Positions 1-50,200 of a stretch of DNA of 64,000 bases are shown here, in pieces. Where the stretch lies: positions 44,781,302-44,845,301 of the forward strand of contig CM046838.1 in NCBI GenBank assembly GCA_025618425.1, given 5' to 3'. Below the pieces are notes generated by a model. It had not been told where the DNA came from. It ran no database searches and saw only the letters and a program-made list of their open reading frames with translations. A program made the position numbers and the translations under genes. The stretch comes from Heliocidaris tuberculata (lineage: Eukaryota > Echinodermata > Echinoidea > Camarodonta > Echinometridae). Within the stretch, counting starts at the first letter, position 1. Each line of letters opens with the position of its first letter.

Positions 1-731
1 GCCTTGTGAAGTCGGGGTATTGTGCAACAAAGCGATAGCCTTCATCCAAGTCCACACATGATAGTATGGATCGTTCAAGCGGGACGGTATGACGTGACCG
101 TCAATAAATATCGCAACCAATCATTTTACGTTAATAGGACAATTCCACCTCCCTGATAGGACTGTCGCATCGCAGATGCTTCCGACATGAATATACGAAT
201 TCAGAGTTTGTGTTTTTTCCTCGAGGTCGTGTTCAGCCTTGTATGAACTGTAAGGTTTTTTTTTTTTTTTTAAAGTCTGTGTTAATATGTATGAGACTAC
301 GCCAATGTAGATGATTTTTCACTTTGAACTTGAATAGGCAAATCAGGGCTTGTGTATTTTTCTCGAGATTGTGTTCAACCTTGTATTAACGAGCTAATTA
401 AAGAAAAAAAGAAGAAAAAAGGCTGCGTGAATGTGTATAAGACTACGACAACGTAGATGATTTCTCGCTTTCGACATGAATATGCAATATGCAAATCAGA
501 GATTGTGTATTTTCCTCGAGATTGAGTAAAGCCACGTATTAACAAGCTAAATAAGCGTTTTACGTGAATATGCCTGGGACCGCCTGGGACTATCATTTTC
601 CACTTTGGAATGGATCTGAAAACCAGAATGCCAGTCGTTTTTTTTTTTTTTCTCTCTCTCTCTCTCTCTCTTCTTTATTTTGAGTTGTAATATTGTGTGA
701 AGCCTTGTGTTACTAGGTAACTATGTACTAT

Positions 732-788
<57 letters not shown>

Positions 789-1330
789 CACCATGAAGTG
801 TTTTATTTCTTACACTGAAAATATGATACTAAATATTTGGCTTTCAATATACCTTCATACCAAGCGTGGGATAGGCAAGTTTTGTTGTTTTTGTTGTGCG
901 TTGCTGTTGATGTCATTGTTCAGCGACCATCAAAGCATGTTTCAGATAGAAAATATGATTGTTAAGCAAACCAGTATTCACAGTTAGAAGGTTTTGCGGA
1001 CTTCTACATCAGGATGGTCTTGTATATAAGAATATGTAAATCCCGAGTGCTGTTGTCTTTCTTTTGAGGTTGAGTGTCGTGTGGAGCTTTGTATTAACAA
1101 TCTAAATACTGTAAGCATTTTTCGTGAATACGCATGAGACTATGACAAATGGTTTGGACACAAACATGTGAATCAGAGTACCAATGTTTTTCCTTGAGGG
1201 TGAGTATTGTGCGGAATCTTGTATAAAACTGTAAGTGAGAGCATTCTTTAATACAGCCTTGTATAGTTTGAAGAAGAAGAAGAAGAAAAAAAAAAAAGAA
1301 GTTTGGAGAGTCCCAGGGAGAGTCCGAGAG
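1..1330 (-). repeat. Subterminal degenerate tandem repeats, left arm
   Basis: At least five degenerate copies of a roughly 110-230 bp unit lie in the outer 1.3 kb. Read on the minus strand, each contains an ACAAGGCT-type block, then ACAC..CTCAA, CTCGAGGAAAATAC, a CATATTCATGTC block and a TAGTCTCATNCATATTCAC block. Examples lie at about 195-245, 290-390, 430-550, 1010-1090 and 1120-1260. Spacers include poly-T/poly-A runs. Clustered subterminal repeats suggest the end of a mobile or replicating element. No protein is encoded. Confidence 0.7.
735..787. repeat. (AAT)n microsatellite, mirrored at 11283-11333
   Basis: About 17 AAT units in the left arm are mirrored by a similar ATT run in the right arm. 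A short CT run beside each (650-672; 11395-11413) is also mirrored. Confidence 0.9.
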
Positions 1331-1454
1331 TCCTACTTCGAGATGGATTAACATCATGATGAATCTAAATCTTCAAAATAGGAACAACAGATCTAGGCCT
1401 ACTTGAATAATTGCATGCCACTACCCATATTCACTATGGAGAAGATGACTAATT

Positions 1455-1712
1455 GGTTCATAGTTGGTAGAGTGTCTGCCTTAATGTTAAGTCATTAGAT
1501 GAATCCACTGTGATCAGATTGAATGAAGCCAGCACTTGCATAAACACGCCCTTCCAATACTTGTGGGAGCGAATGATAGTCCCTTATGTTCATAAATTCC
1601 CTGTGAGTTTGATACCCATAGATCTACTTTATGAATGCAGACCCACACATTGCCAGTTATTTGCTGGAATTGCTCTCATAACGGGTTCAAATCCTCATAA
1701 CAAGCTCTAGAT
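1455..1712 (+). other. Split tRNA-like A and B boxes (mirror at about 10350-10605)
   Basis: TAGTTGGTAGAGTGTCTGCC at about 1463-1482 resembles a tRNA D-arm / A box. GGGTTCAAATCC at about 1683-1694 resembles a T-arm / B box. They are about 200 bp apart, far more than in an ordinary tRNA. No convincing acceptor stem was found. It may be a tRNA-derived relic interrupted by an insertion, or chance similarity. The same sequence occurs inverted in the right arm. Confidence 0.25.
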
Positions 1713-2739
1713 CCTCAAACCTATCACCACGTATATAAAAGAGCATATTTATAAGATATCACTTAAAACTGGAAGAAAATACCAGTTGGATGTTTCTGAC
1801 ACATCTGAACATATTTTCAATATTCAAAGTGGAATGTAAAGCAAGATTAACCCTTGTACCTGTCTGAAGCTGTCAGACAGATAGCATATATGCACCATCA
1901 GATATAGCTTAGGGTCTACCAGCCAACATCCCAAATGTAGGTGGGTTTTTGTTGTTGTTTTTTTTTTTCAACAGACTTCTTTAGGATAAGATCCGGCATT
2001 TACCGATGTTATTAGAACCTAATACACCTCTTTATTTTAAGCGATGTATCAAAACTCAATTTGGTAAACACTAATCATGCTTCTATCACGCAGATACCGG
2101 TATTATTTTGTTGTTTTTTCTACTTACAGTGTTAAAGATGAGGGATACGAATGAGATTCAAAATCAAGCTTTATAATCTTATTTTCCGCCAGTTTATCTG
2201 GTTATCTATAATTTATGTACGTTACAATTTAAAAATATATGTTAACCAATAGACACATGCACAATTTGAGACACGCTATGGGGGAAAAATACTAACAACA
2301 GTGGTTTAGTAATGATTAAACTCCAGTCGGTTTCACACATTTGTGATAAACACATCACATATAGAACTATACATTGTTCCACCAATAACCTCCATGCAGT
2401 GGTTAATTGTTGGAATTGTTTTAAGCATGAATCAAGTATTTCAAATATCTAAGAAACACATAAGTCAGACTAAAAATATATTTTTCCCAACCGTTTTTAC
2501 AGCATCAGATTAGAGGTTGCTTCGTGTGCTTGTGTGCATATCTTGTAATGCAATAGGTAAAGAGATGCAAGCACTCGTAAGCATCTTAGAGACTTGGAAC
2601 CCACCCGACACGAGAATTTTAATAACTATGGCACAGTGTTCATTGTCACCAGTCTTTGCACATATGTTTAGCTGTCTCTCCATATAGCTCTTCTTTTCAT
2701 CATTCATGTTTTCCCAATTTCCTATTTCATAGTTCTCTG

Positions 2740-3740
2740 TTGTTTTTTTTTTTTTTTTTTTTTGCGAATTGATTTTTTTTTTTTTAAATTTTCATTTCAG
2801 TATTTTTGATTTCCTTACCCCCCCCCCTTTTTTTTTTCATATTGCTATATTTTGTTGTTGTTGTTTTGTTTTGTTTTGTTTTGTTTTTTTGTCAGTTTGA
2901 ACAGTTTCTGTGCATCCTGTTTTACAAGTTTTGTTTATTTGTTGGTTTTGTTGTTGTTTTTTTCATTGACTAACAAAGATATTAATATTTTGCCTGTGAC
3001 TTAACAAATGTATTGATATTCTAACTGAGCATTTGGAGCAATGTTGCATTTTGTTTTCTTGTGAATCTTGTTGTTGTTGTTGTTCATTTGTTAGTGTTTC
3101 GTTGTTGTTTTCTTTGCGTGTGCAAGTTTCTTTTGGTTTAAAAAAAGAAAATTCAGTTTAAACTATTTCTCTGCATCCTCTTTTACAAGTTTTGTTGTTT
3201 ATTCGTTTGTTTCTGTTTTTCTAAGTGTGTTTTTTTTTTTTTTTTGGTATTGTTTTTGTTGCAATGAGTAACAAAGACATTTTGTCTGTGACTAACAAAT
3301 GTATTAATATTCTGTGAGCAATAGGAGCAGTGTCGTCCCTTGTTTTCTTGTTGTTAAATTTTTGTTCGTTTGTTCGTGTTTTGTTTTGTTTTGTTTTGTT
3401 TTGTTTGTTTGTTTTGTTTTTTGGGGGGGGTTTCGTTGTTATTTTGTTTTCAGTTTTACTGTTTTATTTGTTTGTTTGTTTGATTTGTTGTTGTTGTTGT
3501 TTTGTTTTTTTTTTGCATTGACCAACACATTTATTTTTACTGTACCTAATGGCATTTTGCACGATGACTTCTTTCTGTTTGCTTTTTGTTAACTTTTTAA
3601 TGTGTATGTTATTTATTTGTTTTGTTATTTTTTTTTTCTTCTTCTTCAGTTTAATCTATTTCTATGTATCCTCTCAGACTATTTTGTCATTTATTTTGCC
3701 CTGACTAACAATCTTTAAAAAAAAAAAAAGAAAAAAAGAA
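2740..3740. repeat. T-rich strand-asymmetric tract with ~280-bp degenerate tandem units (left)
   Basis: This kilobase is dominated by T runs and TTGTT/TTTTG repeats. Within it a degenerate ~270-290 bp unit recurs: TGCATCCT.TTTTACAAGTTTTG at about 2911 and 3173, and ACTAACAAATG / TAACAAAGA.ATT blocks at about 2969, 3000, 3268 and 3290. A third, poorer copy lies near 3660-3715. ORFs here are low-complexity F/V/C-rich artefacts. The mirror copy (about 8320-9320) is A-rich, so the two arms have opposite strand asymmetry. Confidence 0.6.
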
Positions 3741-5515
3741 AAGATGTTGGTACGTTTTTCTTCAGGCATTTCATTATCATATACTTGCTGTATTTGCAGT
3801 ACATTTTTTTTGTGTGTGTGTGTGTACACGTGTGTCTAAACAACGAGAAAAGATCAAGTAAATTATCTTTTGGTAGTATAAAGCCAATATGCACTTCACA
3901 TAAAAACACTCCCACACACGCTGACAATATCAAAACAGACTTAAGGAGGGAGAAAGAAAGAAAGAAAAAAAAAAGACCACGAAGATTTTGGACTTGAGAT
4001 AATACGTTAATTTCTTTTTATTATGTTAAATCATTTCACAAAACACGTGCTTCATACAACAGGGAAATATAAATTACAATTTCATGCATCGGTCATATTT
4101 CAATATACATAACTAATTCCCACAATTATATTTGCAGTCATCGTTAATTTATTACACTTTTTTTTTTCTCATTTATAATGTAAGCTCTGAGAGCTTGTCC
4201 CATTTTATGAAACTTCATAATAAATAACTGTACAGATGGTCGTATAAATACAATGAACAATCAATGTGACCGCCAAAGCAAAACCAAAATAACACTTCTG
4301 TTATATTATCATATTCCTTTGCATCTGTTTTGTTTATCATTTATTACATCATTGTATGTATTACGAAATTCCCATATTTTTTGTTATACATGACTGTTCT
4401 ATCCTACGATGGTAACGAAATGAAAACAAGAACCCACAAGTGTCAAGTGACATGTTTATTGTTTTACTTGAACAAAATTGAACTACTATGGGCATAACAA
4501 GACAATGTACAATTAAAATACCACTGACAGCTGTCTCAAAGCCAACATTCAATTGCATAAGTGTTGGCGGTTTTAACTTTCATATTACACATACATTTTT
4601 ATTTTTCATTTTTGTAAATCACATATGGAGTAGATATATAAATGATGCAGCCTATGCAACAGACTATTTACAACTTTTCATTGACAAGCATCCAATGTGT
4701 AAGATATTTATGACATATCCTCTGTTAACACTACCACGTCATTCGACTCTTACGTATCCAAAATACATCTCGTAAAGTACATATATTTACAATAATAGCT
4801 TTTCAAAACTTACATTGTAAAACAACATTGTATACAGTTCACAGCAGACAGCAACACAAATAAAGCCTGATACATCACCGTGTCAATTCATTTCTCAGCA
4901 TTTTTTGAAATAATTTTTCTTCAATAGTTGGACAGTCAAAAAAAGTTGATCTTAATAATTGGTGAAAGCAAATACATGTATAGAACATGCTTTTACACTG
5001 TATATCATATTAAAATTCATTGACAGTACGATGTTTCTATCAGTTTATATACATGTATATATTATTTAAAAAGCTTTATACAAGATAATAATTTGGGGAA
5101 TTATCTATACTTGTTGAACATTATACACAGACTATCCCAAACACAGAGAATCAATTACAATTGTGCCTACATGACAGGTTAAAAATAAGTTTATTGAAAG
5201 CTAAACTTAAACGATCAACAAAACATTACACTGACAAAATTTGAATTCAATGTGTCCAGGGTACACAGCATAAAATTTCCAAGAACTCTTGATTTGACCA
5301 TCTTTACAAAACACGCCATAGTTTTCACATTTCTTCCACATTAGATGGTATGGTATACGAGAACATTTCCCCTGCATAAGGTGCCAACGTAAAATACACA
5401 AAACGGATACAATCCTTGTGCAGAAGTTACGTTGAAATCAATTCGCTTGACAGATAACAAACAAAAACAACTCGGGAGGGAAGGGGGAAGAGAAAAGAAA
5501 ATGCCTGAACTTTAG
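3740..5515. other. Non-coding AT-rich part of left arm (mirror 6545-8320)
   Basis: This segment lies between the polymerase 3' end and the T-rich tract. It contains only short ORFs without family resemblance, such as a 95-codon frame at 4488-4775 repeated identically in the mirror. Because the arms are near-identical, conservation between them says nothing about coding. An AATAAA at about 6866-6871 (plus strand, 3' of the right polymerase fragment), with its mirror near 5190, could be a poly(A) signal for the polymerase gene. Confidence 0.5.
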
Positions 5516-5517
5516 TG

Positions 5518-5976
5518 TTAAATGTCCAAGTAGGTAGTTGACACATTGTCTTCCAACACCTTTCTCTTTGGATAGAAGTAGGTAAATGCATTTTTAATTT
5601 GTGAATAGGTCGAAATCCCATTTTGAACCACGCGAAACCCTTTGTTTACACCACTACCAGCAACCTTTGACCGAAGAACCTGCAAGTAAACGTCTTTTGT
5701 AATGTTGTTCTGTTTCTTGTTAACCCCTTTGCAACTGAATTTGTCTGTTGCGCCAAAACAGTAATATGTTTTACTACACAGCGCTATGATTCCGTCACCC
5801 TCCCATTCCACTTTGAATAGTCCCGGGGTTCTCTTGTCATATCGAGCATTCTCAGGGGTATCATTTCGAGGGAACCAGTTGGATTTGTCCCATTCGTACT
5901 CTCTTTTCATACTGGGTTTAATAAGTCTCTCAAATGAATCTGATGAAATAGCAATGTAAGCGGAGTCAGTGTCCAT
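5518..5976 (-). pseudogene. Family-B DNA polymerase C-terminus, left-arm copy
   Basis: This is an open reading frame of 152 codons with no upstream partner. It starts at the metal-binding DTDS signature of family-B polymerase motif C (MDTDSAYIAIS, residues 1-11). It then has a K-x-Y element (SKTYYCF, about residues 81-87), as in the thumb-proximal part of protein-primed family-B enzymes, and ends naturally with TTYLDI-stop. The exonuclease domain and the fingers/palm motifs A and B are absent, so it cannot encode a working polymerase. Such polymerases are carried by Polintons/Mavericks, adintovirus-like elements and linear plasmids; which one is inference. This copy is uninterrupted, unlike its mirror. 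The first methionine is only the first ATG left of the palindrome junction, not a credible native start. Confidence 0.8.
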
Positions 5977-6542
5977 TTGAATCCAATATCAGATAACTGT
6001 TATGAGGTTGATATGGCTAAGAGAAAAATCAAAATGGACCTCCCAGTTCAGATTGGGTATCCCTCCGATTTCCAAATGTGTGAAATGGACACTGACTCCG
6101 CTTACATTGCTATTTCATCAGATTCATTTGAGAGACTTATTAAACCCAGTATGAAAAGAGAGTACGAATGGGACAAATCCAACTGGTTCCCTCGAAATGA
6201 TACCCCTGAGAATGCTCGATATGACAAGAGAACCCGGGACTATTCAAAGTGGAATGGGAGGGTGACGGAATCATAGCGCTGTGTAGTAAAACATATTACT
6301 GTTTTGGCGCAACAGACAAATTCAGTTGCAAAGGGGTTAACAAGAAACAGAACAACATTACAAAAGACGTTTACTTGCAGGTTCTTCGGTCAAAGGTTGC
6401 TGGTAGTGGTGTAAACAAAGGGTTTCGCGTGGTTCAAAATGGGATTTCGACCTATTCACAAATTAAAAATGCATTTACCTACTTCTATCCCAAGAGAAAG
6501 GTGTTGGAAGACAATGTGTCAACTACCTACTTGGACATTTAA
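5977..6542 (+). pseudogene. Family-B DNA polymerase C-terminus, right-arm copy (frameshifted)
   Basis: This is the mirror copy of the polymerase 3' end, extended about 34 codons upstream through the spacer. The frame is open from about 5977, where no native ATG is present. It passes through the DTDS motif at about 6085-6100 and breaks near 6233-6235, where the right arm has CCC and the left arm CCCC. The remainder continues in the next frame from about 6249 to the stop at 6540-6542. A single-base homopolymer difference could be a real mutation or a sequencing error. With or without it the gene is only the C-terminal part of a polymerase. Confidence 0.8.
5979..6082 (+). other. Single-copy spacer (palindrome loop)
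   Basis: This 104-bp segment has no mirror copy. It reads open on the plus strand, in frame with the right-arm polymerase fragment, and encodes polymerase sequence just upstream of the DTDS motif (for example KIKMDLPVQIGY). The left-arm copy stops abruptly at 5978. The junction therefore joins one longer and one shorter copy of the same gene head-to-head, as expected if a strand folded back and this segment was the hairpin loop. The stretch between 'LPVQIGY' and 'SDFQMCE' looks shorter than I would expect in this polymerase family, so a small internal deletion is possible (low confidence). Confidence 0.85.
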
Positions 6543-8319
6543 CACTAAAGTTCAGGCATTTTCTTTTCTCTTCCCCCTTCCCTCCCGAGTTGTTTTTGTT
6601 TGTTATCTGTCAAGCGAAGTGATTTCAACGTAACTTCTGCACAAGGATTGTATCCGTTTTGTGTATTTTACGTTGGCACCTTATGCAGGGGAAATGTTCT
6701 CGTATACCATACCATCTAATGTGGAAGAAATGTGAAAACTATGGCGTGTTTTGTAAAGATGGTCAAATCAAGAGTTCTTGGAAATTTTATGCTGTGTACC
6801 CTGGACACATTGAATTCAAATTTTTACAGTGTAGTGTTTTGTTGATCGTTTAAGTTTAGCTTTCAATAAACTTATTTTTAACCTGTCATGTAGGCACAAT
6901 TGTAATTGATTCTCTGTGTTTGGGATAGTCTGTGTATAATGTTCAACAAGTATAGATAATTCCCCAAATTATTATCTTGTATAAAGCTTTTTAAATAATA
7001 TATACATGTATATAAACTGATAGAAACATCGTACTGTCAATGAATTTTAATATGATATACAGTGTAAAAGCATGTTCTATACATGTATTTGCTTTCACCA
7101 ATTATTAAGATCAACTTTTTTTTTGACTGTCCAACTATTGAAGAAAAATTATTTCAAAAAATGCTGAGAAATGAATTGACACGGTGATGTATCAGGCTTT
7201 ATTTGTGTTGCTGTCTGCTGTGAACTGTATACAATGTTGTTTTACAATGTAAGTTTTGAAAAGCTATTATTGTAAATATATGTACTTTACGAGATGTATT
7301 TTGGATACGTAAGAGTCGAATGACGTGGTAGTGTTAACAGAGGATATGTCATAAATATCTTACACATTGGATGCTTGTCAATGAAAAGTTGTAAATAGTC
7401 TGTTGCATAGGCTGCATCATTTATATATCTACTCCATATGTGATTTACAAAAATGAAAAATAAAAATGTATGTGTAATATGAAAGTTAAAACCGCCAACA
7501 CTTATGCAATTGAATGTTGGCTTTGAGACAGCTGTCAGTGGTATTTTAATTGTACATTGTCTTGTTATGCCCATAGTAGTTCAATTTTGTTCAAGTAAAA
7601 CAATAAACATGTCACTTGACACTTGTGGGTTCTTGTTTTCATTTCGTTACCATCGTAGGATAGAACAGTCATGTATAACAAAAAATATGGGAATTTCGTA
7701 ATACATACAATGATGTAATAAATGATAAACAAAACAGATGCAAAGGAATATGATAATATAACAGAAGTGTTATTTTGGTTTTGCTTTGGCGGTCACATTG
7801 ATTGTTCATTGTATTTATACGACCATCTGTACAGTTATTTATTATGAAGTTTCATAAAATGGGACAAGCTCTCAGAGCTTACATTATAAATGAGAGAAAA
7901 AAAAAGTGTAATAAATTAACGATGACTGCAAATATAATTGTGGGAATTAGTTATGTATATTGAAATATGACCGATGCATGAAATTGTAATTTATATTTCC
8001 CTGTTGTATGAAGCACGTGTTTTGTGAAATGATTTAACATAATAAAAAGAAATTAACGTATTATCTCAAGTCCAAAATCTTCGTGGTCTTTTTTTTTTCT
8101 TTCTTTCTTTCTCCCTCCTTAAGTCTGTTTTGATATTGTCAGCGTGTGTGGGAGTGTTTTTATGTGAAGTGCATATTGGCTTTATACTACCAAAAGATAA
8201 TTTACTTGATCTTTTCTCGTTGTTTAGACACACGTGTACACACACACACACAAAAAAAAATGTACTGCAAATACAGCAAGTATATGATAATGAAATGCCT
8301 GAAGAAAAATGTACCAACA

Positions 8320-8646
8320 TCTTTTCTTTTTTTCTTTTTTTTTTAAAGATTGTTAGTCAGGGCAAAATAAATGACAAAATAGTCTGAGAGGATACATAGA
8401 AATAGATTAAACTGAAGAAGAAGAAAAAAAAAACATAACAAAACAAATAAATAACATACACATTAAAAAGTTAACAAAAAGCAAACAGAAAGAAGTCATC
8501 GTGCAAAATGCCATTAGGTACAGTAAAAATAAATGTGTTGGTCAATGCAAAAAAAAAACAAAACAACAACAACAACAAAACAAACAAACAAACAAATAAA
8601 ACAGTAAAACTGAAAACAAAATAACAACGAAACCCCCCCCCCCAAA

Positions 8647-8677
<31 letters not shown>

Positions 8678-9320
8678 CAAAACAAAACACGAACAAACGA
8701 ACAAAAATTTAACAACAAGAAAACAAGGGACGACACTGCTCCTATTGCTCACAGAATATTAATACATTTGTTAGTCACAGACAAAATGTCTTTGTTACTC
8801 ATTGCAACAAAAACAATACAAAAAAAAAAAAAAAAACACACTTAGAAAAACAGAAACAAACGAATAAACAACAAAACTTGTAAAAGAGGATGCAGAGAAA
8901 TAGTTTAAACTGAATTTTCTTTTTTTAAACCAAAAGAAACTTGCACACGCAAAGAAAACAACAACGAAACACTAACAAATGAACAACAACAACAAGATTC
9001 ACAAGAAAACAAAATGCAACATTGCTCCAAATGCTCAGTTAGAATATCAATACATTTGTTAAGTCACAGGCAAAATATTAATATCTTTGTTAGTCAATGA
9101 AAAAACAACAACAAAACCAACAAATAAACAAAACTTGTAAAACAGGATGCACAGAAACTGTTCAAACTGACAAAAAAACAAACCAACAAACAAAACAAAA
9201 AAAAAACAACAACAACAAAATATAGCAATATGAAAAAAAAAGGGGGGTAAGGAAATCAAAAATACTGAAATGAAAATTTAAAAAAAAAAATATCAAATCG
9301 CAAAAAAAAAACAAAAAAAA
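8320..9320. repeat. A-rich tract with ~280-bp degenerate tandem units (right)
   Basis: This is the mirror of the left T-rich tract, with AACAA/CAAAA repeats and the same internal units inverted. Homopolymer and CAA/CAAAA copy numbers differ from the left arm, which is where most arm length differences arise. Nothing coding is seen. Confidence 0.6.
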
Positions 9321-10729
9321 ACAACAGAGAACTATGAAATAGGAAATTGGGAAAACATGAATGATGAAAAGAAGAGCTATATGGAGAGACAGCTAAACAT
9401 ATGTGCAAAGACTGGTGACAATGAACACTGTGCCATAGTTATTAAAATTCTCGTGTCGGGTGGGTTCCAAGTCTCTAAGATGCTTACGAGTGCTTGCATC
9501 TCTTTACCTATTGCATTACAAGATATGCACACAAGCACACGAAGCAACCTCTAATCTGATGCTGTAAAAACGGTTGGGAAAAATATATTTTTAGTCTGAC
9601 TTATGTGTTTCTTAGATATTTGAAATACTTGATTCATGCTTAAAACAATTCCAACAATTAACCACTGCATGGAGGTTATTGGTGGAACAATGTATAGTTC
9701 TATATGTGATGTGTTTATCACAAATGTGTGAAACCGACTGGAGTTTAATCATTACTAAACCACTGTTGTTAGTATTTTTCCCCCATAGCGTGTCTCAAAT
9801 TGTGCATGTGTCTATTGGTTAACATATATTTTTAAATTGTAACGTACATAAATTATAGATAACCAGATAAACTGGCGGAAAATAAGATTATAAAGCTTGA
9901 TTTTGAATCTCATTCGTATCCCTCATCTTTAACACTGTAAGTAGAAAAAACAACAACAAAATAATACCGGTATCTGCGTGATAGAAGCATGATTAGTGTT
10001 TACCAAATTGAGTTTTGATACATCGCTTAAAATAAAGAGGTGTATTAGGTTCTAATAACATCGGTAAATGGCGGATCTTATCCTAAAGAAGTCTGTTGAA
10101 AAAAAAAAACAACAACAACAAAAACCCACCTTCATTTGGGATGTTGGCTGGTAGACCCTAAGCTATATCTGATGGTGCATATATGCTATCTGTCTGACAG
10201 CTTCAGACAGGTACAAGGGTTAATCTTGCTTTACATTCCACTTTGAATATTGAAAATATGTTCAGATGTGTCAGAAACATCCAACTGGTATTTTCTTCCA
10301 GTTTTAAGTGATATCTTATAAATATGCTCTTTTATATAGTGGTGATAGGTTTGAGGATCTAGAGCTTGTTATGAGGATTTGAACCCGTTATGAGAGCAAT
10401 TCCAGCAAATAACTGGCAATGTGTGGGTCTGCATTCATAAAGTAGATCTATGGGTATCAAACTCACAGGGAATTTATGAACATAAGGGACTATCATTCGC
10501 TCCCACAAGTATTGGAAGGGCGTGTTTATGCAAGTGCTGGCTTCATTCAATCTGATCACAGTGGATTCATCTAATGACTTAACATTAAGGCAGACACTCT
10601 ACCAACTATGAACCAATTAGTCATCTTCTCCATAGTGAATATGGGTAGTGGCATGCAATTATTCAAGTAGGCCTAGATCTGTTGTTCCTATTTTGAAGAT
10701 TTAGATTCATCATGATGTTAATCCATCTC

Positions 10730-11280
10730 GAAGTAGGACTCTCGGACTCTCCCTGGGACTCTCCAAACTTCTTTTTTTTTTTTCTTCTTCTTCTTCTTCA
10801 AACTATACAAGGCTGTATTAAAGAATGCTCTCACTTACAGTTTTATACAAGATTCCGCACAATACTCACCCTCAAGGAAAAACATTGGTACTCTGATTCA
10901 CATGTTTGTGTCCAAACCATTTGTCATAGTCTCATGCGTATTCACGAAAAATGCTTACAGTATTTAGATTGTTAATACAAAGCTCCACACGACACTCAAC
11001 CTCAAAAGAAAGACAACAGCACTCGGGATTTACATATTCTTATATACAAGACCATCCTGATGTAGAAGTCCGCAAAACCTTCTAACTGTGAATACTGGTT
11101 TGCTTAACAATCATATTTTCTATCTGAAACATGCTTTGATGGTCGCTGAACAATGACATCAACAGCAACGCACAACAAAAACAACAAAACTTGCCTATCC
11201 CACGCTTGGTATGAAGGTATATTGAAAGCCAAATATTTAGTATCATATTTTCAGTGTAAGAAATAAAACACTTCATGGTG

Positions 11281-11334
<54 letters not shown>

Positions 11335-12290
11335 ATAGTACATAGTTACCTAGTAACACAAGGCTTCACACAATATTACAACTCAAAATAAAGAAGAGAG
11401 AGAGAGAGAGAGAAAAAAAAAAAAAAAAACGACTGGCATTCTGGTTTTCAGATCCATTCCAAAGTGGAAAATGATAGTCCCAGGCATATTCACGTAAAAC
11501 GCTTATTTAGCTTGTTAATACGTGGCTTTACTCAATCTCGAGGAAAATACACAATCTCTGATTTGCATATTGCATATTCATGTCGAAAGCGAGAAATCAT
11601 CTACGTTGTCGTAGTCTTATACACATTCACGCAGCCTTTTTTCTTCTTTTTTTCTTTAATTAGCTCGTTAATACAAGGTTGAACACAATCTCGAGAAAAA
11701 TACACAAGCCCTGATTTGCCTATTCAAGTTCAAAGTGAAAAATCATCTACATTGGCGTAGTCTCATACATATTAACACAGACTTTAAAAAAAAAAAAAAA
11801 AACCTTACAGTTCATACAAGGCTGAACACGACCTCGAGGAAAAAACACAAACTCCGAATTCGTATATTCATGTCGGAAGCATCTGCGATGCGACAGTCCT
11901 ATCAGGGAGGTGGAATTGTCCTATTAACGTAAAATGATTGGTTGCGATATTTATTGACGGTCACGTCATACCGTCCCGCTTGAACGATCCATACTATCAT
12001 GTGTGGACTTGGATGAAGGCTATCGCTTTGTTTCACAATACCCTGACTTCACAAGGCTCCACACAACACTCAACTTTGCTCAAGGAAAATACTCAAGCTC
12101 TCTACTTTACATATTCATGTCCAAATCATCCGCACTGTCATAGTCTCATGCATATTCACGTATTGCTTCAGGAACAGGGCATTTCCTAGAAGTTATGTAA
12201 TACCGTCACGCTTGAATGATCAAGCACGCGTGAACTTGGCGGAAGGATATCGCCGTGTCACTCACTTCCCCTCATTAACACTTTCTAATC
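10730..12290 (+). repeat. Subterminal degenerate tandem repeats, right arm and beyond
   Basis: This is the mirror of the left-arm repeats. It continues past the last base that can be matched to the left arm: 12055-12165 is another unit (AAGGCTCCACACAACACTCA ... CATATTCATGTCCAAATC). 12195-12290 is a degenerate copy of 11965-12050 (TACCGTC.CGCTTGAA.GATC ... ACTTGG..GAAGG.TATCGC), about 230 bp apart. The element therefore probably extends at least to 12290, and the left arm should extend a few hundred bp beyond position 1. Confidence 0.65.
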
Positions 12291-12309
12291 TAAACGGGAA
12301 ATACCATCA

Positions 12310-12405
12310 TACATATTCATGTATGATGTCATCTCATACATATTCATGTATGACGTCACGGTGGAGCTCCACTGGCTCCACGGCTCCACCGTGGAGTCTA
12401 GGGGT
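12310..12405. repeat. Tandem duplicated palindromes
   Basis: CATACATATTCATGTATG, itself palindromic, occurs twice, at about 12309 and 12335. Each is followed by ATGTCATC or ACGTCAC. Next comes a hairpin at about 12358-12392 (ACGGTGGAGC ... GCTCCACCGT) with a nested GGAGCTCC. This is hairpin-rich DNA just outside the recognisable end of the large palindrome. Confidence 0.6.
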
Positions 12406-12421
12406 ACCTATATATACTACT

Positions 12422-13145
12422 CACGTCCCTAAAAAACACCAAAGTGCCCCTAAACCCAGTTTTACTGCACCAAATGCTCTGGATATAGAGGGAAAAAAAT
12501 TGGCATTACAACCTCAATAACTCCAAACTGTCTCATTCAATTCAGCTAAAATTTACATAGTACAATTTTGAGTATTATAACTTTCTTGGGGTGCAATTTG
12601 GTGTCAAAAGATCATTTCAATAATAATTTATCAAATTGTGAAAATTGTACTGCTTTCTCAAACGTGGTCAAATGATATTGTCAGGATTATGTAAACACAC
12701 CCATTGTCCATCTGCGCCTGTTTGGAAAGGCATGATAGAGAGCTTGCAAAGTATTTGTGTAATTAACACATGAATGGTAGATTTCAGCATGGCAGCCACA
12801 TAGCCCAGATACTTAACAAGCTCCTCTACTATCTCTTGTCAAACAGGTGCAGATGGACAATGGGTGTGTTTACGTAATCCTGACAATATGATTTGACTAC
12901 TTTTGAAAAAGCAATACAATTTATACAATTTAATAAATTATTATTCAAATGATGATTTGACACCAAATTTCATCCCAAGAAAGATACAATACTCCAGATT
13001 GCAATAGGTAAATTTGACATGAATTGAATGAGTACAGTTTGGAGTTAAAGGTTGTAAAGCTTAAAAATGGTTTTCTCTACATCCAGAGCATTTTGGGCAG
13101 CAATGCTGGGTTTGGGGGTACTTTGGTGTTTTTTTCAGGGGCGTG
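12422..13145. mobile_element. Long inverted-repeat (fold-back) element
   Basis: About 290-bp arms (12422-12716 and 12843-13145) are inverted copies around a ~126-bp spacer. Outer ends begin CACG(T/C)CCCTRAAAAAACACC; inner ends carry ATTGTCCATCTGC. The arms have diverged by an estimated 10-15%. No ORF is seen. It is probably a MITE or fold-back element; the target duplication could not be identified. Confidence 0.7.
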
Positions 13146-13147
13146 TT

Positions 13148-13425
13148 ACACTCCCTTCCCGATGGAAATTTTTGTAAGTTTTTATATTTTTGTAATGTAC
13201 ACCCATAACTCTTCCTTCTGACAAAATTTGGTCTATGGGCCTTAAGAGGAAAAATTTGCCCCAATTTTTAAGGGCGGTCTGACAACCCATCCCGAAGGAA
13301 AATTTTGTCAGTTTTGGTGTTTTGGTAATGTATAGTCAGTCATACACCTTAATTCTGACAAAGTTTGGCGCATATGTTAGATGGGTTGAAATCGACCCGA
13401 CTTTGGGGCCCCTTTCGAGGGCTCT
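13148..13425 (+). repeat. Two degenerate ~130-bp tandem units
   Basis: Unit 1 (about 13155-13278) and unit 2 (about 13287-13420) share CCCGA.GGAAA.TTTTGT.AGTTTT, TTTTGGTAATGTA and TTCTGACAAA.TTTGG blocks in the same order. Nothing coding is seen. Confidence 0.55.
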
Positions 13426-13589
13426 GGGGGCCTAACCCGGCGGCTTCATTCGAGCTGACAAGCATTTTGTGAATGACATGGATAGTCTAAGGAACTTTAA
13501 GGGGGTTAAATCTCATATGTAAAATGGGTTGACTATTTCGGGACAGGCTCCCAGACTAGTATCATCGACCCTCCTAAAAAAGAAAAGGA

Positions 13590-13852
13590 AAGGAAAGAAG
13601 AAGAAGAAGAAGAAGAAGAAGAAGAAGAAGAAGAAGAAGAAGAAGAAGAAGAAGAAGAAGAGGAAGAAAGAGAAGAGAAGAGAAGAGAAGAGAAGAGAAG
13701 AGAAGAGAAGAGAAGAGAAGAGAAGAGAAGAGAAGAGAAGAGAAGAGAAGAGAAGAGAAGAGAAGAGAAGAGAAGAGAAGAGAAGAGAAGAGAAGAGAAG
13801 AGAAGAGAAGAGAAGAGAAGAGAAGAGAAGAGAAGAGAAGAGAAAAAAAAAA
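13590..13852. repeat. (GAA)n then (AGAAG)n purine tract
   Basis: About 70 bp of GAA repeats are followed by about 180 bp of AGAAG/AGAGA pentamer repeats and an A run. The plus strand is essentially all purine for 260 bp. ORFs across it are low-complexity artefacts. Confidence 0.95.
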
Positions 13853-14413
13853 AACTGTTCTCTCAACAGATTCGGAAAAATATATTTTGAATAATCCTTG
13901 TAGACACCCTGAGAGAGTTCCCCCAAAAATTTATGATCTCAGTTATCACAAATTCTTCACTTTCTTATTCTTTGTCGGTTTCTATGATTTCGCTCTTTCC
14001 AATTCCTTTTTAATTAAGTAGCTATAAAATACGAGGAAAATGAACACCCTATATAAATTACATAATTCGTGTACAAGGAAATGTGTATACAGGAACCTGA
14101 GGAAGGAAGACACAGTTTTATGAAAATGAAACAACTATTCATTACACCTACAAACAGGAAAAAACAAACTTAAACACTCTTTAAACCCGGTATGGATCCA
14201 CCACAGCGAGAAAAAGACAACAAAATTATTATCTGTATTGTAAGGCTGTAGGCACTACAATGTAGCGACATAATAGCTTGACAGTATGCGCACTTGATGG
14301 ATTGAATAGAACCATTAACATAGAAAGGAATAGAAGTCTCTTCTTCTATTTTTCTCCGTGTCTTGATCCTTCCCTCTTCCTCTGTTCGTTTCATTCTGTG
14401 TTATTCTGCTAGA

Positions 14414-14456
<43 letters not shown>

Positions 14457-14735
14457 TGCCTCTTCCCTTTCCCGCTATGTTCCTTTTATATATTTTCTCT
14501 CCCAAATAGTAGTTAACGATTTAAAGGGGAGATTTGGTATGAATTAATCTTTGCATGACATGATATTGTAATGTCTATATTGAATGTTCCTCTTGTATGA
14601 AAATGCAGCTTATACTTATAGTTTATTTCATGTTGGCAACCACTGGAATCTGGACAGAAGGCTTTATGCTGAAATTATTTATTTAAAAAATGTCTGTAAC
14701 GGCGTTCCAATGGTTGACTTTCTGCTCTGTAATGT
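13853..14735. other. No gene seen; (CT)n at 14417-14452
   Basis: Unique-looking AT-rich sequence with one CT dinucleotide run. Short ORFs show no domain resemblance. Confidence 0.6.
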
Positions 14736-14744
14736 TTTCTTTGC

Positions 14745-15232
14745 CAAATCAAAATAACAACAACAAAAACAATGATAACAATGATTACAACAATAAAAAT
14801 AATAATAATGATAATAATGATAATAACAAAAATAATAATAATTATAATCATATTACTACTAATGATAATAATGATAATTTGTGATGAAGATGCATGTAGT
14901 TACAATTGGTTTGAAAGTAATTAAAAAAAAATCATGTTCTTCATGTATATACCGGATGTTCATGTTTTAATCCTAGTCATAATTTTTTCTTCATACGGAC
15001 TTTTTACTTATTATAAATGGCATTAAACCATTAATGGCCATTTACTATTATCATAGTAGTGGTAGTAGTAGAAGTAGTACTACTACTGCTGCTACTATCA
15101 TTATCACCACCGCCGCCTTCATGATCATGATTTATATTCATCACCACAATCATCATTATCATCATTATCATCATCACCACCACTATTATCATCATTGTTA
15201 TCATCACCATAATCGACATCATCATGGATAGA
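14745..15232. repeat. Clustered trinucleotide microsatellites
   Basis: AAT/AAC/GAT-type runs at 14745-14882 and TAG/CAT/ATC-type runs at about 15053-15228. ORFs through these are N-, H- or M-rich artefacts. Confidence 0.85.
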
Positions 15233-15275
15233 TGGAAAGTGGTAAATATAGATCAATATCTTAAAAAGGATATTA

Positions 15276-15348
15276 GTGCCGCGGCGTGACCCGAACCGCG
15301 AGCCATATGATCCACAGTCCGGTGACGTATTCACTAAGACAACGACAC
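15276..15348 (-). repeat. tRNA-like sequence (tRNA pseudogene or SINE head)
   Basis: On the minus strand 73 nt begin GTGTCGT and end GCGGCAC, a 7-bp acceptor-like stem with two G-T pairs. An A-box-like TCTTAGTGAATACG and a B-box-like GCGGTTCGGGTCA lie at tRNA-like spacing, with CTGTGGA in the anticodon-loop position. A TTTTT run (15263-15267) follows 8 nt downstream like a Pol III terminator. The T and anticodon stems pair poorly, so a functional tRNA is unlikely; a tRNA-derived SINE or pseudogene fits better. Confidence 0.45.
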
Positions 15349-15359
15349 CTACACTATAT

Positions 15360-16980
15360 CAATTTATATAAACACACAGCAAATGTTAATTACTTTTGCA
15401 TTATTTGTCTTTCAATATCACTTCATTTATAATCGTCATCATCAACAAAGGAAAGTAATACAATGTAGACATGTACAACTGTACGAAAAGAAGAGAGAAA
15501 AAAGCTCAAGTCATGTCATATCATTGACGATGCATGCAGAGCTATTTCGTCGCACCATTTAGGATGGAATACATGTACCGTATATGTCCCAGTTTCCGAT
15601 CGATTCCGAACAATTGGCAAACATAAAAAAATATCTTTTTTTTTTTTTTAGGACTGTTGAAATATAATTTTGTCATAAAAACATGCTAAAGATATATTGT
15701 AAAATTTTACAATTACGGAGAGACCATCCCACGTCCCGAAAATGGGTTTACAGGTGCCCGAATATCGAGTAATTTTGATATTCTGCACCGTACGCTTAGA
15801 AGTTAAAAAGTATTTGCCCACCGATGATTATGAACCTATAAAATTGCATTTAAAAATCAAATGACTATTAATGCCTCAGTCTACAAAGTCCTGGTGTTAT
15901 CTGCAATAACCGATTTTTTTGTGTGTGTGGTGCATACATCAGATCGACAAATTATTGTATCGAATTCGATATACTGTACATGTAGATAAATATAAATTTG
16001 CCTGCACGTGAACTTTGAACATTTAGGTATTGCTTTGTTATTTTGAAAGACAAACAAATACATGGCCAACGTTAGACCAGGTATTTCCGGAGAATGGACT
16101 GGCAAAGGAGGATGAAGAGTGTCATCATTATCAGTCAGACCCAACTTCGGAAAACCGAGCACAGGTATATGTATACTACAAAAAAAACAGAGTATAACGC
16201 ACGATGAATATGAGAGCCCTCATCGTTCAGTGCGAGGCAGTATGTACAAAAGGCATAGGGAAATCTCGCAAAGTCGACCTGCTGTCGATATACTTCAAAG
16301 TAATGATGAGGATATTATTTATTTCCAATGCTGGTTATTTGAAAGTTAGTTCATATGACGAATCATTCCATGACTCTGAAGTTAATTGAGACGCAGCGTT
16401 ATTTTTGAGAGTTGCATATCATTAGCAGGTTGACTTTGCCACATTTTCCTTTGTCTTTTGTACTTACTGCCCCGAAATTTTACAACGAGGGCTTCATATC
16501 TATAGGGTGTTATAGGGCACATATTCGTAATTCATCTGCTCGCGATGCATTCTGGACATAATTGTAGCTGATCAAAAATATTCACATGAAATTAAATACT
16601 TGCCGGCTGTAAATCTATTCAAGAAAAAAATGGTGTTTGGAAGTCACATCCTTGCATATATCACCGCATGTGGAAGCTTGGACGTTTTAGTGTATTTTAG
16701 AGGAATTTTTGATCTACAGTGCATTTCCACTGTTCACAGCTGCCTGCAGTGAAAAAGTCGCAGTTCGTGATTAGCCTCGTTTCAGCCTGCACAGTATTTG
16801 TTTTAGCCAAATAAGTCGCCAAATAAAGTACCTAATTTTGTATTACCATCAGTGTAGTTCCTACTCTGTCAGTTAAATCGATTTTTTTTGGAGAGAGATT
16901 GATTAAATATGAATTTTTGATGTGGTTCAGCTTAACACGTGTTTCCGCTATCGGGGTCCGAATTACTCGTGTGATCCCTA
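15360..16980. other. No gene seen
   Basis: AT-rich sequence with only short ORFs, none resembling a known domain. No inverted-repeat or LTR structure was recognised. Confidence 0.5.
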
Positions 16981-20904: not shown

Positions 20905-33856
<12,952 letters not shown>

Positions 33857-34167: not shown

Positions 34168-36600
34168 TAGGTTTTCCCGCCCATCTTCGCAATTTTATCA
34201 TCGGAATCAACGATATTTTCATTCAATTTCACGCGAAATTGATTGACAATGTGGATCAGCATTTAAAAAGCAAATATTATCGTTCAATTTGATTTTTTAA
34301 GCATGCGATTTACTACTGTTAGAATACAAAAGTGCAGAAAGATCATTCAAATTAAATATCTATGTAAACAGCATTCAAATTCGCACAGGACAGGACGTGG
34401 AAAGAATCTGCGCAAACAATTTCATGAATAGGCATACAGTTTCGTAATTTGTGCAATGTTTTTCATCTTATGGAAATGAGTTAATGCATGTTTCTGCTTA
34501 TATGAAAATTACGAATGAAGAAAGAGCAAGGTGTTCAGAGCTGCAGGTGTGTTCAGGTGTCAGTGCTTATGTTAGGCATGCTTGAAGCCTCCTCCCCCCC
34601 CCCCCGTTATATATACATTAACATTTAAAAAAAAAGCACCCAAACCGAAAAGGTCTAGACATTTGTGCAATGTCTTTCATCTTATGATAATGAGTCAGTG
34701 TATGTTTTTGCTTTCATGAAAATCATGAATGTAGAAAGAACAACATTATGATAGCATTTAGCAGATAGCTCTCATTACACCGATAATCGTTGTCAGAGAA
34801 GGTTCTTCAGTTTGGTATAGTTCTTAGAACCAGGTATCATGGCAGCTCGTGTACGATACAATCGTATCTCTGATGTCGACAGACGTCGCTTGGTTGAAGC
34901 ATTCGAAGGAAACAACCAAGATTATCTTGAACTAGCAGATAATCTCGGGATAAAAAGGTCTACTGCTCGATCTATTGTACGAACTTATCTAGAAACTGGC
35001 AGAGCTAACAAGCTTCCAAGAGGAGGGGCACATAACTCCAAAATGGACGAAGAGATGAAGAACTTTCTTCGGGATGCCCTTGAGACCAACCCTTTGCTTA
35101 CACTCACCCAGATGAAGGACAAGCTTCGGGAAGGTCTTCCTCAAAAGCCAGGCGTGTCCTTGTCGACGATTGCTAGAACTCTCGATGGCATGCTCTTCAC
35201 GCTAAAGCTCGCAGAGGATGTACCTGACGCTAGAAACTCACCACGAGTGGTCCAACAACGAAGAGACTATGCCGAGTGGTTCCTGGAGCACGGCATCGTC
35301 GCCAATTGTGTCTTCATTGACGAATGTGGCTACAACATTTGGACACGTCGTACTCAAGGAAGGGCACTACGAGGCGTTCCGGCAAGGAGGGTTGTACACG
35401 GGCAAAGAGGTCGTAACTGTAATGTGACGTTTGCAGTTTCTGCAGCCGCTGGTCTCGTTCATCATGAAATCTCTTTCGAGACTGTCACCAGGGAAAGGTT
35501 CGAGCATTTCCTCGCTGCTACAGCCGCAGAATGCAACGAAATGTTTCCAGATGATGAGCCAGTCATCTTGATTTATGACAACGCTAGGCCGCACGTGAGA
35601 GCTGAGCTACCAGCGGATGCCAACGCTCTCATGGAAACGAAGCTCCTTCCTTCCTACTCGCCATTCTTAAATATGACTGAGATGGCACACTCTTCATTTA
35701 AGAGCGAAGTGAAGAAATGCCTGGCGCAACCTGAGTGGCAAGGTCGGGTCGGAGACAGGATGGCAGCTGAGCGAGCTGGAGTCAACATGCAACAGTGGCG
35801 GTGCAACATTCTAGGAGAAGTTGCAGAGCGGTGTGTCGACGCCATTACCCCTGCCAAGTGTACCCAGTGGTTCAACCATTCACAGACATACATGCCCAGG
35901 TGTCTGAATGGTCAGGAAATTGATGGATGAAACATACTGTTGAGAGTCAAACAACTTGAAGAAAACGAGTATATGACTTTAAAAAGATGAAAAAAGATGA
36001 AAAGAAAAAAAAATATGAAAAGAAACCCCCTCACAGATATGCAAATAAAGACCCTGAAGACCACAACAAAATATATATATAACCCATGACCATGTACATG
36101 ATGTATGACAGGCAGTTTATACTCATTGTATGCAAAGATAAAGAAGTAGACCACAGAAGATTAAAGAATAATGTCATATAAATTGAAAAAAAAAGAAAAG
36201 AAATGTGAATGTCAAATGTATAATGACAGAAAAGAAATTAAAAAAAAGAGAATAAAAATGAAAATGAAAAAGAGATAGAAACCACTTACGTTGTTTTAAT
36301 TGAATGGCGTAAGTGCGAAAGTGATTGCCTGAAGACGAAAATGAAACCGCGATTCAGCAAGGAATTTCTTCTTCCACTCAAACTTGGCGAAATTGAATGA
36401 CGGTTATTCATTACCAAATTGAATCAAATTGCAGTTAATTTGAACGATAGTTTTACTAATTTCAGTGTTTAAAAAATAAATTGAACGCAAAAAGTGTTAA
36501 ATTGAAACACTGGAAAAGGGATGGACTAAAAACTGCGTGAATTTGAATGCTTGATCATGAAATTGAATGCTGTTTTGACGAATTCGGCCGGGAAAACCTA
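34168..36600 (+). mobile_element. Intact-looking IS630/Tc1-mariner-type DNA transposon
   Basis: Terminal inverted repeats TAGGTTTTCCCG (34168-34179; inverted CGGGAAAACCTA at 36589-36600) are flanked by TA (34166-34167, 36601-36602). Many ATTGAATG/CATTCAAT-type motifs lie near both ends (about 34215-34390 and 36300-36570), like transposase-binding subterminal repeats. A 363-codon transposase occupies the middle. The flanks join across the TA to rebuild one unit of the minisatellite to the right, which confirms the insertion site. Confidence 0.88.
34839..35930 (+). CDS. DDE transposase (IS630/Tc1-mariner superfamily)
   Basis: Cuts and pastes its own element at TA sites. 363 aa, uninterrupted. 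Residues 1-60 form a helix-turn-helix DNA-binding region (VDRRRLVEAFEG, LADNLGIKRSTARSIV) and a second HTH-like segment follows (about 85-125). The RNase-H-like catalytic core has FIDECGYNIW (D161), LIYDNARPH (D247) and LNMTEMAHSSFK (E281), with 33 residues between the last two by my count. The start codon follows ...GGTATC and is the first ATG of the frame. The ORF is intact and sits between matching TIRs, so the element may be autonomous. It may also belong to a little-described DDE subfamily rather than classical Tc1 or mariner. Confidence 0.9.
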   Translation: MAARVRYNRISDVDRRRLVEAFEGNNQDYLELADNLGIKRSTARSIVRTYLETGRANKLPRGGAHNSKMDEEMKNFLRDALETNPLLTLTQMKDKLREGLPQKPGVSLSTIARTLDGMLFTLKLAEDVPDARNSPRVVQQRRDYAEWFLEHGIVANCVFIDECGYNIWTRRTQGRALRGVPARRVVHGQRGRNCNVTFAVSAAAGLVHHEISFETVTRERFEHFLAATAAECNEMFPDDEPVILIYDNARPHVRAELPADANALMETKLLPSYSPFLNMTEMAHSSFKSEVKKCLAQPEWQGRVGDRMAAERAGVNMQQWRCNILGEVAERCVDAITPAKCTQWFNHSQTYMPRCLNGQEIDG

Positions 36601-47200: not shown

Positions 47201-50200
47201 ATGAGAAAGTTTTGCCTATCTAAGATTGTCAATACTTTCTAACAAACAAGAAATGAATATGTTTTCAATGCCTCCTTCAAGGAACCTTCTGATTACAAAC
47301 GATTCTTTAAAGTTTAAAAGAAATGCAACAGCTAAATTGCAAAGTTTCAACAGATATAAGAACACATGTACAATCCATGAATGCTTCGAGATTATACTTA
47401 GTTTACAGTCACTGCAATATCTAAAGATCATAACTTCATCGATCGTAACATCTACAAACTAGTGAAAAACAAAAAGAAAACGACAATGAATCGATTACAC
47501 TAGACGTACGAACGACTGAACGCTATCGTGACCATATAAGGATATATAAATATTCATAAGTACAGTGATGTCTGCGACTCATGCGCAGTGTGTGCGAAGG
47601 CACGTGTATGCAAAATTAAGCACTGAATATGTATAGAACGAACGAAAACGGCACGCGCCAAGGTCGCGTTGCTATGCAACGACCTCAGGAATGTGGAGAG
47701 CTCATTATTATGTCTATCGTAAGCTAAAAATAAGTCAATGTGTTACAAATGCACATGAAACAAGCATTTACAGGTGGTTTTTAAAAAGTTTCAAATATGA
47801 AATTGAGTAGAAAACGTCTCTGTTGTTTCTCTAATATACTGAGTACATATAGTCGTACAAAATGTGATATTTACAGCACATTTTTAGTTACAAAACAGTG
47901 TCAAAGTACTGCATTGAATCTTGCACATATTAAAACTGTATAACGAGGTTAAAGGTACAGAAAGATGCATGTATTGGCAATGCATCAAATATAGGTAACA
48001 GTATAATTACACATCATGCATAATGCTTAAAGTATAATTCTTTCACTGAACTATGTATGTACATTTATACCATGTAGAAATAATATGAAACAAAAATTAA
48101 CTTCTTTGCACAAACAAAACTTTTAACAGGTCAACTGGTGAAACATGAATTTGTATACACAAAATCTTTTACTGTCTGTAGCTTTACCTTTCACATAAAC
48201 TAAACAGAATAATACTTTGAATATCACATGTCATGAGTCAGTCTTTCCCATGCAATATTTTTTCTCCTAGCATTCAACTCTGAATTAACACAGTAAGCTA
48301 TGTAACAAAATTAACAAACATAGTAATAAGTAACATATAATAATTTTCTTTTGTTAACACCTTTTCCATCTGGTTTCAACTCGATGTTAACTGATTTCAA
48401 TTCAATGTTAACTGATATTTTTGTATCAGTATGACGATATGAAATAAAAAAAAACGATTTTCTATTTATATCACAATTCCAGGATAAAATCTTGTGTATC
48501 CAACAAACTACATGAATAATCTCCTGGTATTTTCATGTTATGATAATTCTGACATAATTTCTTTTTGACTTTTACAAAAAGCACTGTCTTAAATTTCCAC
48601 ATTATTACATGCTGGAATGTTTTGTATATATAGGTATAAACAAATTATGCTTGACCTCATGCATAGACTTACAAATCATTATCACATGAATATGGAATTT
48701 TGGGGTATACAATACATGTAAATCACAAGAATGAAAGATACATTTATGAATTGCGCGAAATGTCCAATACTGAAATGTTCAGTTATCCAGTGTCCATTTC
48801 ACTATGTTCATGTGTCCATGGTAGTCCACTCATGAATCGAATGTCCAGTATCTTCATGCAAATTTGTAATTCACATGTTAAGTGTTCACAAATGTTTGTC
48901 ATATTTCTCAATGTTCATCACGTTTTCAGTTTTCACAGGTCCATTCATATTCCTATGCTCTGGAAAGCGTATCAGCAATTATATTATCCTTTCCTTTGAT
49001 ATGAGTCACTTTCAGTCCATATGGCTGTAGAATCAAACTCCATCGAAAAAGTCTCTGGTTTCTGGTCCGGAATCGCTCAAGGAAAGTCAATGGATTGTGG
49101 TCTGTATATACAGTTACTTCAGACGAGTTGCTCAGATACACCTCAAAGTGTTGAACTGCTAACACCAGACCTAAACACTCTTTCTCTATGGTAGAATACC
49201 TTCGCTGATGAATGTTCAGTTTCTTTGAGAAGTAGCTGATGGGTTTCAGGAGTCTAGATTTGTCCTTTTGTAAGAGTACAGCTCCAACTCCTGTGTCACT
49301 GGCATCCACAGCGAGCTGGAAAGGTTTTTCAAAGTTTGGTGCTTCCAGCACAGGATCCGACATCAGCACAGCCTTCAATTTCTGGAAAGCTGACTCACAA
49401 GCTCCTGACCAGTCAAATTTGACCCCCTTCTTGAGAAGGTCAGTCAGCGGGGCAACCACTTCACTGAAGTTCGGGACGAACTTGCGGTAAAAACCACACA
49501 TTCCAAGAAATCGGAGGAGTTCTCTCTTGGAGGAGGGGCAGGGAAAATCCACGATAGCCTGGTCTTTGGCGCTTCGTGGGGCAACACGACCTTGACCTAT
49601 TTCATGACCTAAATAGGTCACAGATGCTTTGGCAAATTCGCATTTTGCCAAGTTCACAACCAGTCCTGACTTGGAAAGCCTTCTAAACAAATCTCTGAGA
49701 TGAGCCAAATGCTCCCTCCAACTGTTGCTATATACCAAGACATCGTCAAGATACACTACACAATTTCCATGCCCTGAAATCACACTATTCATCATCCTCT
49801 GAAAAGTCGCAGGGGCATTCTTCATGCCGAATGGCATGACCCGACACTGGAAGAGACCTTGTGGCGTCACAAATGCTGAGATTTCCTTGGTTTCCTCAGA
49901 TAATGGCACCTGCCAATAACCCTTCATTAGATCTATCTTGCTCACATAGGCAGCGTTTCCAACCTGGTCTATACAATCCTCTATACGGGGGAGAGGAAAA
50001 GAATCTGTCTTCGTAACAGCATTAACCTTGCGGAAATCAATACAGAATCTTTGGGAACCATCTGGTTTTGGAACCAGAACTATAGGTGAACTCCAACTAC
50101 TATTGCTTTGTTCTATGATACCATGTTCAAGCATGTATTCTACTTCTTTGTTCACTACAGTTTTCTTGTCAGGATGTAGTCTGTATGGGTGTTGTTTTAT

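Follow-up and report, generated by a model that had tools for sequence, protein, structure and literature searches.

A palindromic Polinton-type polymerase element in Heliocidaris tuberculata, probably formed by strand snap-back before insertion

Introduction

Polintons (Mavericks) are recognised by ends that start with AG and by 6-bp target duplications, and adintoviruses are defined by genes for a polymerase, an integrase and a capsid. Adeno-associated virus (AAV) is a parvovirus with hairpin ends and without a DNA polymerase of its own, and regrowth of a terminus from the other end is familiar from adenovirus-like replicons. A four-gene core has been described for Polintons (PMC3671162). 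AAV populations have been reported to hold both symmetric and asymmetric snapback genomes, the asymmetric ones with a single-stranded loop (PMC8235507). A palindromic Polinton form was not mentioned in the titles and abstract openings of the papers listed. Here we analysed a stretch of 64,000 nucleotides from Heliocidaris tuberculata (the window, C7:44781302-44845301; labels beginning with C denote contigs of this genome), in which a large palindrome is centred on a DNA polymerase gene. We conclude that the palindrome is probably an integrated, defective Polinton-type polymerase element with its polymerase-side end at both ends, which likely arose by snap-back on a truncated strand and was then probably inserted in one piece.

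Results

Positions are numbered along the window, with negative numbers for upstream sequence; 10 kb upstream of the window was included, and the genome searched comprised 897 Mb in 69 contigs. Self-alignment showed that 1-12057 was self-complementary, so the 12-kb palindrome of the original prediction is real. The arms aligned over 6,287 columns with 27 substitutions and 20 indel events, which is far above chance. Because the upstream 10 kb continued the symmetry, the left arm must start before the window, and the predicted limits of 1..12057 were corrected: arm alignment and comparison with relatives placed the palindromic element proper at -336..12421 (12,758 bp). It consists of a left arm at -336..5978 (6,315 bp; 1..5978 in the window, minus strand), which is an inverted copy of the element's polymerase-side end, an unpaired spacer at 5979..6082 (104 bp, plus strand), which is polymerase coding sequence upstream of motif C, and a right arm at 6083..12421 (6,339 bp, plus strand). 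Both element termini read AGTAGT...ACTACT; the 5' terminus is AGTAGTATATATAGG, the 3' terminus is its reverse complement, and the right arm terminates in ...CCTATATATACTACT. A subterminal repeat array with a period of about 146 bp was located at 272..554 (plus strand), with its mirror copy at 11503..11785 (minus strand). The repeats predicted near the outer ends thus exist, and they resemble repeats of two relatives, at C9:17.04 Mb and C10:33.39 Mb.

The insertion site was identified at a chromosome 7 sister locus (C7:35.92 Mb), where both flanks were matched and the element was absent. On the minus strand, C7:35924539-35928000 aligned with -337..-3780 and C7:35920001-35924544 with 16915..12422. 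These two matches overlapped by six bases, CACGCC, present there in a single copy. In the occupied locus, the left copy of the target-site duplication, CACGCC, lies outside the window at -342..-337 and the right copy, CACGTC, at 12422..12427 (plus strand). With an empty locus that has the target once, the 12.8 kb is a single, precise insertion that duplicated 6 bp of target, and neither an assembly fold-back nor a host rearrangement. The empty site also excludes that the arms are unrelated host sequence duplicated once, one of the outcomes that the original prediction had named as refuting it.

Symmetry continued beyond the element, with -743..-337 matching 13140..13551 at 91.7% and a total symmetric span of -743..13551. 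The outer 407/412 bp, together with 718 bp past 12421, form an older host inverted repeat, the arms of which are identical at 655/757 columns. The element interrupts its left arm, and the rest of it stands outside the element at 12422..13551 (no strand). This host repeat (12422-13551 with -743..-337) is about 1.5 kb long and high-copy, with 4,386 first-look candidates genome-wide, 40 of which were scored; one copy, C7:35923415-35924066, was identical over 652 bp and pointed to the empty locus. A 4-bp duplication, CCAG, at -743/13551 was rejected as a target site, since the outer symmetry is the host repeat. A 718-bp 'insert' in the right arm was likewise rejected, being the middle of that repeat, and a repair model based on a divergence jump near the arm ends was withdrawn because the jump is also host repeat.

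The sister locus belongs to a larger repeated segment. At least about 59 kb (element excluded), from -9,999 to about 49,000, is repeated in inverted orientation at C7:35894001-35934249, 8.9 Mb away. Its extent was sampled: identity was 99.6-99.7% in two of three samples, and the third, C7:35872001-35876000, had no collinear match. By our own arithmetic, the sister segment is about 6.2 kb shorter than the window between 17 and 46 kb. The two loci may be a segmental duplication or a misplaced haplotype; as a comparison for their identity, a heterozygosity of 2.11% is given for the sea urchin Diadema setosum (PMC11066563).

We then compared divergence at the two loci. When substitutions were counted strictly, with five identical columns required on each side, the flanks differed from the empty locus at 27/7,893 columns (0.34%) and the arms from each other at 14/6,287 (0.22%). 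We infer that the insertion postdates the split of the two chromosome 7 loci. The values of 0.34% and 0.22% leave little time in which conversion in place could have followed, barring gene conversion between the arms.

The centre of the palindrome lies inside a polymerase gene of the protein-primed type, as had been predicted, the class being assigned from the predicted fold and the motifs of the C9:14.88 Mb relative. Each arm contains about the last 152 polymerase codons, reading outward from an MDTDS motif (left copy 5518..5976, minus strand; right copy 6085..6542, plus strand, frameshifted). The spacer takes the right copy further upstream, as far as about codon 1052 in the numbering of the relative at C9:14.88 Mb, but lacks 69 bp of coding sequence that C10, C14 and C18 have. 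In that C9 relative the frame stays open for 1,262 aa (C9:14888183-14891968). Its last 939 aa were modelled with a predicted local distance difference test (pLDDT) score of 87; the predicted fold best matched phi29 polymerase, and the nearest viral models in BFVD were a densovirus-named record, an adintovirus and a MELD virus. PF03175 was found in 4/5 protein relatives rescanned. Pfam gave no polymerase match in the window fragment or the C9 open reading frame (ORF), and NCBIfam gave none in the C9, C18 and C19 ORFs, the only ones searched with it. A PDB sequence search with the window fragment returned six weak matches (best E 0.79), and two IMG/VR pattern scans for this polymerase returned 6 and 26 stretches and no confirmed contigs. 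The protein is identified as a polymerase by its motifs, by PF03175 in relatives and by the modelled fold.

Named protein relatives were from echinoderms, lancelets and cnidarians (among the best 120 of 830 and the best 120 of 1,553 matches). A segment resembling Vsr endonuclease lies between polymerase motifs A and B (phmmer E 0.004, profile E 8e-5), and its pattern was present in 109 of the 120 relatives listed, the best of 1,553. The N-terminal part of the C9 ORF contains an OTU-like motif pair, an assignment of our own; polymerases of such a kind are described as carrying a vOTU domain (PMC11071308). C9:14888183-14891968 and the 120 listed relatives form a polymerase family of animals, of zinc-finger/OTU-like/family-B type and with a Vsr-like segment. 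The Vsr-like nuclease possibly cuts DNA for integration.

Genome-wide searches with arm pieces and the polymerase, in which the best candidates were scored, gave five relatives with both ends mapped: C14:28411636-28422900, C18:343652-359437, C10:5174473-5184840, C9:14884324-14897786 (C9:14.88 Mb) and C9:17042205-17050506 (C9:17.04 Mb). AGTAGT or AGCAGC was present at both ends of all six end-mapped copies, the window element included. All five relatives had 6-bp target duplications; four were exact, two of these in low-complexity DNA, and that of C18 agreed at 5/6 bases. Their terminal inverted repeats were unequal, from 0.53 to 4.0 kb. At C19:28819825-28833927 the polymerase unit occurs as two direct copies, which are 98.8% identical over 5.2 kb and lie about 8 kb from each other, and a decayed polymerase copy was seen on C13; the ends of the C13 and C19 copies fall outside the mapped set.

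Core genes were sought with Pfam. Positions 1-12600 contained 61 stop-to-stop ORFs of at least 60 aa, many of them mirror pairs; none of the 12 scanned reached a cut-off, and the arms hold no other recognisable gene, in agreement with the prediction. In the relatives at C14, C18, C10 and C9:14.88 Mb, the scan covered ORFs of at least 130 aa that were uncut by the fetch borders; none of these 21 matched an integrase, packaging ATPase, protease or capsid above a cut-off, and one contained C2H2 fingers. RVE integrase, packaging ATPase and C5 protease were found neither in three C19 ORFs nor in the 12 window-element ORFs. As no other core gene was found in the element or the relatives examined, the element does not qualify as a canonical Polinton or adintovirus. 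The original prediction is corrected on this point; the inverted-duplication form of a protein-primed-polymerase element that it proposed is the best reading. We describe the element as Polinton-type by its polymerase and as resembling a snapback genome in the way it works, and we do not file it as a Polinton.

A different Polinton-like locus was noticed at C6:45000001-45010000. Its polymerase-family ORF is 1,306 aa long and matches Endonuclease VII (E 1.5e-6), and one of the adjacent opposite-strand ORFs had a weak Pox_A32 ATPase match below the cut-off. This locus is a possible source of functions in trans.

The inverted-duplication junction of the window element lies at 5971..5984 (no strand), with a microhomology of 0-4 bp, ATTT at most. 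The whole left side is the inverted right end, starting about 59 codons from the right-copy breakpoint. Comparable junctions were found in two relatives. The far terminal repeat of C9:14.88 Mb includes the last 39 polymerase codons and is, because it contains them, a copy of the polymerase-side end. In the far repeat of C14, the copy of the polymerase-side end goes 339 bp further in than that of its sister C18; it meets the polymerase near codon 203, in a clean join with 3-bp microhomology (CTA). We infer that one snap-back process would account for all three junctions.

Other features were noted elsewhere in the window. A Gypsy-type element at 48953-53855 (minus strand) has integrase domains (residues 228-581) before the reverse transcriptase (residues 742-900), a domain order that we take to resemble gmr1-like elements; an ORF upstream in it was weakly SCAN-like, below the cut-off. 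An open 363-aa DDE_3 transposase frame at 34839-35930 (plus strand) lies where the GC content peaks (35001-36000, 0.497; adjoining bins, 0.381 and 0.313), and a TAC triplet array of 379 bp at 30679-31057 leaves several frames open on both strands.

Discussion

We consider snap-back before insertion the probable origin of the palindrome. Protein-primed strand-displacement replication would free a single strand with its 5' right end intact. Its 3' side would be lost within the polymerase gene, upstream of about codon 1052 (C9 relative numbering), and the resulting 3' end would pair by a few bases with its own strand about 59 codons on, at MDTDS; synthesis from there up to the 5' end would form a hairpin. 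Opening of the hairpin by replication would yield a linear palindrome with one terminus per end, which an integrase, probably acting in trans, would insert with a 6-bp target duplication. Near annealing would produce a palindrome, and far annealing would produce a long-repeat relative with a large single-copy centre, the asymmetric outcome.

Several points weigh against this origin. Neither a replication intermediate nor a palindrome outside the chromosomes was seen in the data, which are an assembled genome; the element's own unrearranged parent was not found, and an integrase was found in no family member examined. The 4-bp microhomology requires a parent that reads like C9:14.88 Mb, and C10, C14 and C18 differ there. 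The join in C9:14.88 Mb sits in a poly-A run and is little informative, and that of C14 might instead reflect loss of internal sequence from a longer-repeat parent. The target duplication has one mismatch (CACGCC/CACGTC), which we attribute to mutation, since CACGCC is what the empty locus reads. As for the timing, gene conversion could keep the arms alike and so weaken it, and raw counts depend on the aligner in simple repeats: MAFFT gave 142/7,893 for the flanks against 27/6,287 for the arms, and BLAST mismatches in the two flanks were 18 and 24.

The main rival is that an ordinary element was inserted and that a later chromosomal break in its other half was repaired by invasion of one terminal repeat into its inverted partner, with copying inward as far as the polymerase and closure by a microhomology join. 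Such a repair would retain the termini and the 6-bp duplication and leave the same junction, and chromosomal breaks are known to yield fold-back products (PMC10622511). We nevertheless judge it unlikely, since the strict divergences between the loci and between the arms leave it little time, and no step in arm identity was seen near the ends, where the outermost 313 columns contain one substitution. Another reading is that the palindrome replicates and moves as a lineage of its own, as a snapback satellite to full elements, with one of its insertions in the window. The element does have a terminus at each end and sits as a unit between target duplications; against this, the arm pieces 736-1730 and 11900-12421 had no second match above 89% that was longer than 73 bp among the candidates scored genome-wide, and the polymerase searches, scored likewise, gave no second copy inverted at MDTDS, so that such a lineage is quite improbable. 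The suggestion in the original prediction of hairpin ends in the life cycle, or of amplification as a palindrome, gained no support from the same two arm pieces.

Inverted artefacts occur in long-read data, and a fold-back in a chimeric read or in the assembly could mimic a palindrome. The arms, however, are set apart by 27 substitutions and 20 indel events, and the flanks differ from each other while both are collinear with the empty locus across the 6-bp duplication, which makes an artefact very improbable. Slighter still is the chance of a host chromosomal inverted duplication without transposition: chromosomes are known to undergo inverted duplication by fold-back priming (PMC10622511), but the palindrome stops exactly at element-type termini and a 6-bp target duplication, the flanks lie outside the inversion, and the empty site contradicts it.

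If snap-back is the true origin, the palindrome is sequence-level evidence for a single-stranded, protein-primed stage of Polinton-type elements in animals, and it records a missing terminus regrown from the other terminus, an event that is hard to catch in transposons. It would also account for the wide variation in terminal-repeat length among sister copies and mean that a terminus at each end suffices for integration; the empty sister locus makes the timing testable. More generally, and tentatively, protein-primed polymerase elements of animals may regrow a lost end by snap-back from the surviving one, with products that grade from long-repeat forms to a full palindrome and an integration machinery that takes even the symmetric defective form. 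Such products would then be an endogenous counterpart of viral snapback genomes, within a one-gene family that has a Vsr-like nuclease in its polymerase.

The element has several features in common with Polintons/Mavericks: its family-B polymerase is, by predicted fold, of the protein-primed class, it has terminal inverted repeats and ends that start with AG, and its target duplications are 6 bp long. It departs from them in that no integrase, packaging ATPase, C5 protease or capsid gene was found in the copies examined here, and in that the window copy is a full palindrome. Adintovirus and bidnavirus-like polymerases are the nearest predicted folds in BFVD to this polymerase family, which has a Vsr-like segment between motifs A and B; unlike adintoviruses, neither the element nor the scanned relatives yielded an integrase or capsid gene. 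The invertron-type linear plasmid pAL2-1 resembles the element in its large terminal inverted repeats and its integration into the host genome; it differs in being mitochondrial and fungal and in having short direct and inverted flanking duplications, in contrast to the plain 6-bp ones here, and the excerpt of its report describes no palindromic integrated form (PMC1864894). With AAV snapback genomes, the window element shares self-complementarity and the presence of the same end twice; those genomes are packaged, whereas this one is chromosomal.

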